A DNA stretch of 64,000 bases from Chloroflexota bacterium (GTDB taxonomy: Bacteria > Chloroflexota > Anaerolineae > Aggregatilineales > Phototrophicaceae). This document shows positions 28,918 through 33,449 of this stretch, piece by piece (position 1 is the stretch's first letter; every line of letters begins with the position of its first letter). Location of the stretch: the NCBI GenBank assembly GCA_011523615.1, contig WTGJ01000027.1:758599-822598 (forward strand), written 5' to 3'. Position numbers and translations under genes: made by a program. The notes beneath the pieces were generated by a model. It worked only from the letters and a program-made list of their open reading frames with translations, was not told the DNA's origin and did not search any database.

Positions 28918-29468
28918 TGGGCTGCTGCTGGATCCGCAGGATTCTCTTCTGCCGGCGCTTCATCCTCCCAGATGCGCGTAGCGATATCGATGAATAGCCG
29001 GCCATCCAGATGATCGATCTCATGTTGAAACACGCGAGCCAGCCAGCCTTTGGCCTTCACTCGCTGCGGCGCACCATTGCGATCCTGACCCGTTACCACA
29101 ATCTCCTGATGGCGTTCTACCGTACCACTGATGCCGGGGATGGATAAGCAACCTTCCACATCTTCCACCGTTTCTCGGCTTCGCTTGATGATTTTGGGGT
29201 TGGCAAAGACGAAGGTTTGGCCCCGCGCATCGCCCATTTTCTCGATCATCGCCTCGTCGGCCTCCTCGGGCAAGCGCGCCACGAAAAGACGATACCGTTC
29301 ACCCACCTGTGGGGCCGCCAAACCCACCCCGGATGCTGCCGTCATCGTTTCCAACATATCGTCGATCAGCGCATTCGTGCTGCGGCCAAAATCCTGCAAT
29401 TTAATGGCACGGCGCCGGAGTATGGGCTGGCCATTCAACACAATCTCTCGCAGGGCCATCGCCTTCAC
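28914..29468 (-). CDS. def: Peptide deformylase
   Basis: This 184-residue metalloenzyme removes the formyl group from nascent proteins. The three motifs are intact: GVGLAAPQ (47-54), EGCLSIP (105-111, metal-binding Cys107) and QHEIDHLDG (148-156, with the two metal His and the catalytic Glu). A GTG at 29468 overlaps the upstream gene's stop as GTGA. ATG 29459 is an alternative start, three residues shorter. It is probably co-transcribed with the secreted protein gene upstream. Confidence 0.96.
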   Translation of the reverse strand: MKAMALREIVLNGQPILRRRAIKLQDFGRSTNALIDDMLETMTAASGVGLAAPQVGERYRLFVARLPEEADEAMIEKMGDARGQTFVFANPKIIKRSRETVEDVEGCLSIPGISGTVERHQEIVVTGQDRNGAPQRVKAKGWLARVFQHEIDHLDGRLFIDIATRIWEDEAPAEENPADPAAAH

Positions 29469-30652
29469 TCACTCAACGGGATGATGATTCGACCGTCTTC
29501 GTCCGCTTCCAGGGCGTCTTGCGTGATATAATCCCAGTCAACGGATTGAACCGTTCGCAAAACCGCCAGAATCTCAGAGTGATCTGGAGCGGTGGGATCA
29601 GATTCCTCTCCAGCATCTTGGGACGATTCAGCTGCCAATTGGACCAGATCGAGGTCGCTTTCCTCGAAGAGGATTTCTGCCAATAGCGTCGCATGGTCAT
29701 CTTTGCCTTGTACATACCAGGCAGCGCTATGTTCTTCGCCCAAGGCGGTTTCAAATGCGAAACTGATCAAATCACCACCTTCCCATTCCGTGCGGGAGAA
29801 AACGCTGGCATTGGGGAAGGCCTTGGCGAGGAGGGCGAGGACTTGTTCCTCATCGTGGATTGCATTCGGAATGGCTTCGATTCTCAGTTGCTTTTGGGCA
29901 TCGATCTGGATGCTCAAAGGATTGCCCGGTGCATAGTCCTGCACCTCCCAACTGCTGGGAAACCGTAGGACGTAGCCGGATACGGGATCGTAATTCCCTG
30001 TCCAGCCGGCCGTTCCTTCGCCATACATGGGGATCTCCTCCAGCCGGAGGGCCATTTGTTCAGCGAGGAAAATGGTTTGTTCGATCGCATTGCTCGGTCC
30101 TACGACGCGAACGACGTACAAGCGATGGCCATCAGTCCAAGCCAGATGCCGCGCGTTGAACAACCGACGATTCAACGTCAGATTGTAATCCACGTAGTAA
30201 CGATCACCGCGCAATTCGCCCGGGCCGCGGCGGGAGACTGCTTGATAATTCCTCCAGGTCCGCTCCAAGTTGGTTGAGGTAAAGTGCTGCGGCAAATCAT
30301 CGAGCGACAGGCCGGCAGCGTCCTGGACGTAGACTTCAATCACGCTCAAGTCACCGCGCAGGGTGGTACGAGCTAAATCCGCCTCATTGCTAGGCAAAAC
30401 CTGGTTCCAAGCTAAAGGCTGCGGTATGGGAATGGTGTACAAAGCGCCGGGGTGGATGTACCGTGCCGAGAAATCCAGGGCTACATTGGCCAATGCCGTG
30501 GGAAAGGGTTCCGGGCTGGGTAAAGGGGTAGCTTCGATGGTTTGCGTGGGTGCAGGGTTACTGATGGCGGGCAGAATAGCGGTCGCAGCCATCACGATGA
30601 CCAGAAAAGATCCAATGATGATCGACATTCGCTTCTGCATTTCCCGGCTCAT
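29465..30652 (-). CDS. Membrane-anchored protein of unknown function
   Basis: This 395-residue protein has an N-terminal membrane anchor or signal (residues 10-30, IIIGSFLVIVMAATAILPAI) and a Pro/Thr-rich linker. Two similar-looking extracytoplasmic alpha/beta stretches follow: one around 75-190 (RGDLSVIEVYVQDAAG ... LYVVRVVGPSNAIEQTIFLA), the second around 200-330 (YVLRFPSSWEVQDYAPGNPL ... AAWYVQGKDDHATLLAEILF). The second half resembles PsbP/MOG1-type folds that begin with a Phe-Pro-x-Trp strand, but this is tentative. ATG 30652 is preferred, with TAGGA upstream. The gene overlaps def by four bases. Confidence 0.65.
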   Translation of the reverse strand: MSREMQKRMSIIIGSFLVIVMAATAILPAISNPAPTQTIEATPLPSPEPFPTALANVALDFSARYIHPGALYTIPIPQPLAWNQVLPSNEADLARTTLRGDLSVIEVYVQDAAGLSLDDLPQHFTSTNLERTWRNYQAVSRRGPGELRGDRYYVDYNLTLNRRLFNARHLAWTDGHRLYVVRVVGPSNAIEQTIFLAEQMALRLEEIPMYGEGTAGWTGNYDPVSGYVLRFPSSWEVQDYAPGNPLSIQIDAQKQLRIEAIPNAIHDEEQVLALLAKAFPNASVFSRTEWEGGDLISFAFETALGEEHSAAWYVQGKDDHATLLAEILFEESDLDLVQLAAESSQDAGEESDPTAPDHSEILAVLRTVQSVDWDYITQDALEADEDGRIIIPLSE

Positions 30653-30699
30653 CAATTCCTACCTCAACGACTGATCCTGTTCGGCCATCATACAGGAAA

Positions 30700-30755: not shown

Positions 30756-32363
30756 ATGGAAATCCTTCCCACCGAAATTCAAAAATCCAGCGAAGAGTAT
30801 CCAGAGAATTTTGCTTTTCATCAAAGCCTCGCCGCGGAGCTGCACGAAAGGCAAGCACAGGTGAGCCTGGGCGGTGGTGAACGGTACCGCCAGAGGCATC
30901 AGCAGCAGGGAAAAATGCTGGTGCGTGCACGCATCGACGCCCTCGTCGATCACGCTGCTGCTTTTCTGGAATTATCCCCGCTGGCGGCCTGGGGCTGTTA
31001 TGAAGATGATGCGCCGGCTGCGGGCATCATCACCGGCATCGGCCGGATTCAAGGCCAGCCCTGCATCATCATCGCCAATGATGCGACCGTCAAAGGCGGC
31101 ACCTATTATCCTTTGACGGTCAAAAAGCATCTGCGGGCGCAACAGATCGCCCTCGAGAACCGGTTGCCGTGCATTTACCTCGTGGATAGTGGTGGCGCGT
31201 ATCTACCGTTGCAGGCAGAAGTGTTTCCCGACCGCGATGATTTTGGCCGCATCTTCTACAACCAGGCCCAGATGAGTGCAGCGGGCATCCCGCAAATTGC
31301 TTGTGTGATGGGCAGTTGTACGGCGGGCGGGGCATATGTTCCGGCCATGTCCGATGAAACGGTGATCGTCAAAGACCAAGGCAGCATCTTTTTGGGGGGT
31401 CCGCCCTTGGTCAAGGCGGCGACCGGAGAAGATGTGACGGTCGAGGAGTTGGGTGGTGCCATCGTCCATACCCATACCTCCGGCGTCGCCGATCATCTGG
31501 CGCAAAACGATGAGCATGCCCTGCAGATCTTGCGTGATATCGTCGCCAACCTGAATCTACCCTCCTTCCCCCCACCACCTCATCCACCGGTCGCGCCCCT
31601 CCATGATGCAAATGAGATTTACGGCATCCTCCCGACCAGTTTTCGCCAAACCTACGATGTTCGTGAAATCATCAGTCGGCTGGTAGATGACAGTCGCTTC
31701 CATGAATTCAAGAAGAATTACGGTACGACGTTGGTGACTGGTTTTGCTCGATTGGAAGGATACCCGGTGGGAATCCTGGCGAACCAGGGCATCCTTTTCA
31801 GCGAATCAGCGCTCAAAGGGGCTCATTTCATTCAACTATGTGCTGCCCGCGGGGTGCCTTTGCTCTTTTTGCAAAACATCACCGGTTTCATGGTCGGACG
31901 TGAATACGAGGCGGGCGGGATCGCGAAGGATGGGGCAAAGCTCGTCAACGCCGTCGCGAACGCCGCCGTGCCCAAGCTGACCGTCATCATTGGCGGTAGC
32001 TTCGGCGCCGGGAATTATGGGATGTGCGGCCGCGCCTATGATCCGCGTTTTCTATGGCTGTGGCCCAACGCACGCATCAGCGTCATGGGCGGCGAGCAAG
32101 CGGCCAACGTCTTGCTCACCATCCGGCGCGAACAAAGGGCCAGACAGGGTGAAACAGAAATGAGCCCAGAGGAAGAAAATCGTTTCCGCAAACCGATCCT
32201 CGAAAAATATGAGGCAGAAGGCAACCCATATTATGCCAGCGCACGCCTATGGGATGATGGCATCATCGATCCCCTGCAAACCCGTCGCGTGCTGGGTTTA
32301 GCCCTGGCCATCACCAGCCGCGAACTCCCTTACGATTCGACATATGGCATTTTTCGCATGTGA
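30756..32363 (+). CDS. Acyl-CoA carboxylase carboxyltransferase subunit (methylcrotonyl-CoA carboxylase beta type)
   Basis: This 535-residue carboxyltransferase moves CO2 from carboxybiotin to an acyl-CoA. It matches the methylcrotonyl-CoA carboxylase beta group more than propionyl-CoA carboxylase: [20 protein letters not shown], an N-terminal crotonase-like domain with [14 protein letters not shown] and [32 protein letters not shown], a C-terminal domain with [20 protein letters not shown] and [18 protein letters not shown]. It would act in leucine or related branched acid breakdown. The biotin carboxylase/BCCP partner is not in the window. The selenoprotein gene starts 13 bases downstream. 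Confidence 0.9.
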
Positions 32364-32376
32364 GGAAGGCAACGAC

Positions 32377-32949
32377 ATGAACCAACCACAGGACCGGATC
32401 GCCTGGATCGAAACCATCGCACCAGCGGAAGCGGATGGCGAGTTGAAGACTCTCTATGAAGCCCATTTCGATCGACAAGGGGGTGGGGTGGATCACATCT
32501 TGCAGATTCACAGTTTGCATCCACAAAGCTTGCAGGATCACGTCCAACTGTATCAAACCTTGATGTTCGCTCCTTCTCCCTTATCCAGAGCAGAAAGGGA
32601 AATGATCGCGGTCGTGGTTTCGTCGATCAACCAGTGCAAGTACTGACTGCTCCACCATTCGCGAAATCTTCGCCAGTTGGTGAAGGACGAAGAGCTGGTC
32701 GACCAAATCGAACGCAATCACCAGCAGGCGAAACTCACCGCCGAAACCAAGGCCTTGCTGGATTATGCAGCGAAGTTGACGCTCCGCCCCGGTGAGATGC
32801 AGGAAAACGATGTCGCAGCATTGCGGGCTGCAGGCTATACCGACCGCGCGATCCTCGATGCGGCCCAAATCGTCGCCTACTACGCATACGTGAATCGCAT
32901 CGCTTCTGGACTCGGGGTGGGTTTGGAGGATTACTGGCGAAAAGCCTGA
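32377..32949 (+). CDS. AhpD-like peroxidase-related protein with in-frame TGA (probable selenocysteine)
   Basis: Read through the TGA at 32644-32646, this frame gives a 190-residue protein of the AhpD-like carboxymuconolactone-decarboxylase superfamily, close to the 'peroxidase-related enzyme' group. Conserved segments occur on both sides of the TGA: AWIETIAPAEADGELKTLYE, MFAPSPLSRAEREMIAVVV, then ALLDYAAKLTLRP and AAGYTDRAILDAAQIVAYY. The family active site NQCxYCxxHH reads Asn-Gln-Cys87-Lys-Tyr-TGA90-Leu-Leu-His-His, so the stop replaces exactly the second redox cysteine. A hairpin fitting a bacterial SECIS lies 28 nt downstream. I therefore call one selenoprotein with CxxU. A strong GAGGAAGG precedes the ATG. 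It would reduce peroxides or act as a thiol-disulfide enzyme. The alternative is a recent nonsense mutation. Confidence 0.85.
32668..32685 (+). promoter_or_regulatory. Candidate bacterial SECIS element
   Basis: CTTCGCC (32668-32674) pairs with GGTGAAG (32679-32685), 7 bp with one G-U, around the loop AGTT (32675-32678); a flanking T-G pair can extend it. The loop has a G in its second position and begins 28 nt after the TGA, within the 16-37 nt range described for bSECIS. Confidence 0.7.
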
Positions 32950-33449
32950 TCCGCCATCCCCGCTGCCCAGCGCTGGATTGCATCCGCCAACCGCAACCGA
33001 ATCTTCAACCGTTGCTTTGCCTCATAGGGAATGCGCAGGAGCGGTTGTTTCGGCGGTGAATCTTCTCCCACATAATAGATTCGGTAATCTTTCTGCAGTT
33101 GCATGTGCAAAGATTCCGGGTTGTGAAACAGGCCTTTGTAGGCCCATTCGCGTTCACCCAGGATGAGTTCATAAGAAGAGCTGTTCGCACCCTGCCGGAG
33201 CGACCAAATCCCCATCAACTTGATTCTCTCGAATGAAAAAAAGGAGCCCCTGCGCCACCAAGCGATCGCCGCCATGCCATCCGCTTCTTGCGGCAATACT
33301 TTCGGACCATAGCCATACCAACCGTCGATGGCGCCCCGAAGGTACGTTTCGAGCAAATCGAAGGCGCCCACGTCATCCAGTACCCTGGCCGCAGCAGCAT
33401 TCGTTCGCCGGTGCTGTTGTGGGCTTGCGCGGCCTTTCATTCTGGCCAT
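32931..33449 (-). CDS. Protein of unknown function
   Basis: This 172-residue protein is basic and soluble, and I do not recognise the family. It contains GAFDLLETYLRGAIDGWYGYG, a strand-rich middle (SFFSFERIKLMGIWSLRQG, SYELILGEREWAYKGL) and a C-terminal helix. No signal peptide or membrane segment is seen. Its 3' end overlaps the selenoprotein gene by 19 bases tail to tail. It is divergent from gmd, and the ATG at 33449 is the first in frame. Confidence 0.6.
   Translation of the reverse strand: MARMKGRASPQQHRRTNAAAARVLDDVGAFDLLETYLRGAIDGWYGYGPKVLPQEADGMAAIAWWRRGSFFSFERIKLMGIWSLRQGANSSSYELILGEREWAYKGLFHNPESLHMQLQKDYRIYYVGEDSPPKQPLLRIPYEAKQRLKIRLRLADAIQRWAAGMADQAFRQ

Follow-up and report, generated by a model that had tools for sequence, protein, structure and literature searches.

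A probable AhpD-like selenoprotein with a CxxU motif encoded in a Chloroflexota genome

The locus studied here raises the question of whether a TGA in the middle of a gene for an AhpD-like enzyme ends the protein or is read as selenocysteine (Sec). The gene lies within the window, by which we mean the whole 64,000-nucleotide stretch of Chloroflexota DNA that was analysed, and its features are collected in Table 1. A sequence-only reading had placed the TGA inside one conserved protein and on the second cysteine of a redox CxxC motif, and both statements are borne out. Apart from the TGA that ends it, the frame is interrupted by a single stop, the TGA at codon 90, and the residues around this codon read exactly as proposed, C87-K-Y-U90-L-L-H-H. 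With the TGA translated as Cys, the product matches the 'peroxidase-related enzyme' family TIGR01926 over residues 10-181 (163.3 bits, cut-off 81.8) and also PF02627 (CMD), so that homology is seen before the TGA as well as after it. In alignments, the Cys of Cys-form homologues falls on the UGA. A significant Pfam match to the sestrin family PF04636, weaker than these two, covers residues 17-126. The sequence GAGGAAGG is found just 5′ of the ATG.

Table 1. Location of the features discussed in the text (window coordinates unless a contig is given)
Feature	Position	Strand	Remarks
Acyl-CoA carboxylase carboxyltransferase-type gene	30756..32363	+	ends 13 nt upstream of the selenoprotein ATG
Shine-Dalgarno-like GAGGAAGG	32362..32369	+	read from sequence; overlaps 3′ end of upstream gene
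AhpD-like (TIGR01926) probable selenoprotein gene	32377..32949	+	190 residues, Sec at position 90
TGC, Cys87	32635..32637	+	opens CxxU motif
In-frame TGA, read as selenocysteine (U90)	32644..32646	+	CxxU second position
Putative bacterial SECIS hairpin CUUCGCC-AGUU-GGUGAAG	32668..32685	+	7 bp, loop 4 nt, -10.0 kcal/mol
selD / selA loci, listed together	G000:C19:123494-124426 and C19:836727-838070		

Because the score against TIGR00777, the AhpD peroxidase proper, stays under the curated cut-off (21.3 bits against 191.95), the protein is by its family scores a relative of AhpD and not AhpD itself. The model for AhpD-related (seleno)proteins, NF041238, likewise gave a score under its cut-off (63.8 against 175 bits). 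Judged from these comparisons and from those that follow, it is nearly certain that the gene encodes a real selenoprotein belonging to the TIGR01926 'peroxidase-related' branch of the AhpD/CMD superfamily.

The fate of the TGA in relatives bears directly on this. We surveyed 98 genomes of the same family for homologues with an E value below 1e-14 and exactly one in-frame TGA, and 53 of them carry such a close homologue. Close relatives from Chloroflexota and Bacillota, 48-64% identical, were read at the motif wherever the script could place them (L029, for which another frame was picked, was left out); all are CxYU with the TGA at the second position. Among them are three from Bacillota, namely Acidaminobacter sp. 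JC074 and two MAGs (48-51% identity). Chance had been judged improbable from the one sequence and can be excluded, because homologues in a further 52 genomes from the family retain a single TGA in the matched frame, the inspected motifs are CxxU and the TGA also occurs in Bacillota. A nonsense mutation that breaks an ordinary Cys enzyme, or an assembly error that misreads TGC or TGT, could draw on the fragmented assembly (31 contigs) and on the Cys homologues found in the phylum, but it deserves practically no credence since the frame has no other defect, the downstream synonymous sites are constrained as in a SECIS, and the TGA stands at the same codon in dozens of independently assembled genomes, a conservation across families and phyla that refutes it.

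Is the codon then read as selenocysteine or as some other residue? The genome (2.64 Mb, 94% complete) contains all four of the genes that such decoding would call for, as the sequence-only reading had proposed to check. A genome search found tRNA-Sec with 73.6 bits, where the gathering score is 47, and ARAGORN confirmed it as SeC with anticodon tca; SelA (555.8 bits), SelB (390 bits) and SelD (368.8 bits) all exceed their curated cut-offs. The selA gene is situated about 14 kb beyond the end of the window, and selD itself carries one in-frame TGA. Across the family survey, SelA or SelB exceeds the cut-off in every one of the 53 genomes with a TGA homologue. Such a homologue is present in 53 of the 77 genomes with SelA or SelB and in none of the 21 with neither (Fisher p = 3e-9, a value that ignores shared descent). 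In two fragmentary assemblies (G045 and G047) SelA is present and SelB has no match over the cut-off, and the reverse holds for G025. The inserted residue cannot be seen from sequence alone, and in principle an altered code might give the UGA another meaning, such as Trp or Cys, or plain readthrough might pass it. However, this is very improbable: the TGA occupies a redox Cys position and not a Trp position, its carriers track the Sec machinery, and the genome has both tRNA-Sec and SelB. An altered genetic code was rejected given that UGA also terminates the very same gene and that the Sec machinery is present.

Reading the codon as selenocysteine would further require a SECIS element downstream. 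A recent model of the bacterial element specifies a stem of 4-16 bp, a loop of 3-9 nt in which a G is found among the first two bases, a distance of 16-37 nt from the UGA and an energy of at most -7.5 kcal/mol (PMC13188914). The hairpin at 32668-32685, with a G at loop position 2 and 28 nt between the UGA and the loop, satisfies all of these constraints. In an alignment of 33 sequences, the window included, the loop is invariably AGUU, and a single bulged base interrupts the 3′ strand of most stems. The third pair can be C-G, U-A or G-C, and the sixth is U-A in the relatives and C-G in the window. In the seven sequences that lack the bulge, all 49 cells pair and two pairs have changed on both sides, a result equalled by 9 of 500 shuffles; sliding the partner strand abolishes pairing. 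The synonymous choices tell a similar story, codons +8 to +11 being nearly fixed as CTC CGT CAG TTG, far above background use: codon +9 is CGT in 32 of the 33 sequences (8% elsewhere) and codon +11 is TTG in all 33 (25% elsewhere). The compensatory changes, the invariant loop and the biased synonymous codons thus support a SECIS function for the predicted hairpin. The hairpin with SECIS spacing that had been proposed from the window sequence is right in substance, being conserved and compatible with the bacterial model, and the conserved element is the one at 32668-32685.

The hairpin alone would prove little, because 4.1% of the TGA triplets present in the window are by chance followed by a perfect stem of this kind. 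Such a stem arose in 0.02% of 5000 synonymous randomisations. The strict perfect-stem model finds the element in 8 of 37 relatives, as the stems of most of them contain the one-base bulge. When the free downstream RNA is folded, the lowest-energy structure is a longer pairing nearer the UGA (-12.6 kcal/mol, against -10.0 for the conserved hairpin), which is not the element conserved in the relatives. The conserved hairpin takes over as best fold only if roughly the first 12 nt or more, beginning with the U of the UGA, are masked, as a ribosome is expected to do. Sliding-window folding energies compared with synonymous shuffles gave a modest dip after the TGA, a weakly informative result partly because the codon table used included the conserved SECIS codons, and an Rfam scan of 32300-33000 returned no matches.

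Sixteen loci of about 45% identity form a second group, which is also CxYU, and one of its members, a paralogue of the window gene, is in the window's own genome (CRYU, G000:C31:13495-14034, L053). The hairpin of this group, GACCUC-CGUGCC-GAGGUC, differs from the SECIS of the window gene. A sample of 400 genomes across the phylum added more TGA forms and also Cys forms. A tree of 82 rows brings the Sec-bearing rows together, and on it the Sec/Cys label needs three changes as compared with about 12 when labels are shuffled. One Cys sequence with the motif CDYC (L089, from G180) sits on a long branch among the Sec rows, possibly as a Sec-to-Cys change or through misplacement. Two more distant homologues, L068 and L099, have the motifs CPFU and CTFU and are perhaps a third Sec branch. 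We are doubtful of a bolder proposal, in which the Sec form would be the old fixed state of one TIGR01926 branch common to Chloroflexota and part of the Bacillota; each genome would carry two paralogues, each with a SECIS of its own and with different substrates, and Sec would be required for chemistry that proteins of the Cys branch do not perform.

What the protein might do can be approached through its fold. The AlphaFold2 model (pLDDT 79.6) has an all-helical fold of the AhpD type, which matches 3c1l, 6k40 and 2pfx with TM scores of 0.77-0.81. Together with 2oyo and 2prr these are Cys-form peroxidase-related proteins that share full-length homology and fold with the window protein, and in the printed alignments 2pfx and 6k40 have Cys where it has Sec. 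The N-terminal domain of Sestrin (PF04636; Sestrin-2, 5dj4) is likewise similar in fold and matched by Pfam; Sestrin, unlike the window protein, is a eukaryotic two-domain regulator, and is not known to have a counterpart of Sec/Cys 90. AhpD of Mycobacterium tuberculosis (1gu9, 1knc) has the same core in spite of a weak sequence match (E 0.012). Its relay is made up of Glu118, Cys130, His132, Cys133 and His137 (PMC3141380), which correspond by spacing to E75, C87, Y89, U90 and H94, all invariant in the aligned relatives. The window protein thus differs in having Sec for Cys133 and Tyr89 for His132; PA0269 also has Tyr in the latter place.

We have combined these data in a model for synthesis and catalysis. 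SelB carrying Sec-tRNA-Sec would bind the hairpin and deliver Sec to the UGA, and decoding of the UGA would yield the full 190-residue protein; the machinery, the codon and the hairpin can all be read in the genome, and from them we infer the insertion. U90, in the place of AhpD Cys133, would be paired with C87, the counterpart of Cys130. Its selenolate, aided by the relay residues E75, Y89 and H94, may attack a peroxide or a disulfide, the resulting selenenyl group would be resolved by C87 with formation of a Se-S bond, and a thiol reductant would then reduce this bond. A selenol-based peroxide or disulfide reductase that uses the AhpD relay is what we consider the probable activity, and the likely role would be hydroperoxide detoxification or electron relay to a peroxiredoxin.

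A real selenoprotein could also catalyse something other than peroxide reduction, acting as a thiol-disulfide adaptor, as a Bmp8-like dehalogenase or, through the carboxylase, in CoA-thioester metabolism. Proteins with the AhpD fold do have varied functions, the structural matches include the debrominase Bmp8, and the carboxyltransferase gene ends only 13 nt upstream. On the other hand, the closest relatives of known structure go by antioxidant or peroxidase-related names, even if these names are largely untested, and the carboxylase did not turn up in the flanks searched around the relatives, which were 1.5 kb long in most cases and 4 kb at the most. Such a different reaction is conceivable and somewhat unlikely.

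The acyl-CoA carboxylase neighbour was correctly noted in the window and the two genes are possibly co-transcribed. However, the neighbour does not recur near the relatives in a search of their flanks that covered no more than 1.5 kb for most and as far as 4 kb for a few, with the window as positive control, and no functional link is to be drawn from it for this reason. A Pfam search of the neighbours that do recur in relatives gave no family above the cut-off. One recurring downstream gene (L016:4821-6293, also at L023, L030 and L040) starts with KRDCxTC, has no Pfam match and looks thioredoxin-like. Within the window, two ORFs on the minus strand have no Pfam or NCBIfam match, one of 396 aa (29465-30655) and one of 172 aa (32931-33449) that shares 19 bases with the 3′ end of the selenoprotein gene.

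With respect to known systems, the window selenoprotein is not new in kind. AhpD-like CxxU proteins are known among bacterial selenoproteins, as had been stated: the Sargasso Sea selenoproteome of 2005 included 27 such sequences, there under COG2128 (PMC1088965), and this study is cited by a 2026 catalogue of prokaryotic selenoproteins for its entry 'AhpD-like protein, TIGR01926, CxxU' (PMC13188914). The peroxidase-related subgroup, which had seemed less familiar, is therefore already catalogued, and the window gene adds to a known kind. The likeness, as judged from the catalogue description (example entry MCB9421940.1), lies in TIGR01926 over the cut-off and a CxxU with Sec second in both. 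We found no biochemistry for the CxYU branch of TIGR01926 in the literature.

Taken as a whole, the selenoprotein explanation, comprising the assignment to the TIGR01926 branch and the putative Sec insertion, is one in which we place very high confidence. Without it, the gene would be annotated as a truncated protein of 89 residues or as a pseudogene. The explanation also documents a widespread pair of CxYU AhpD-like selenoproteins in Chloroflexota, a branch that offers a comparison of Sec and Cys within one fold.
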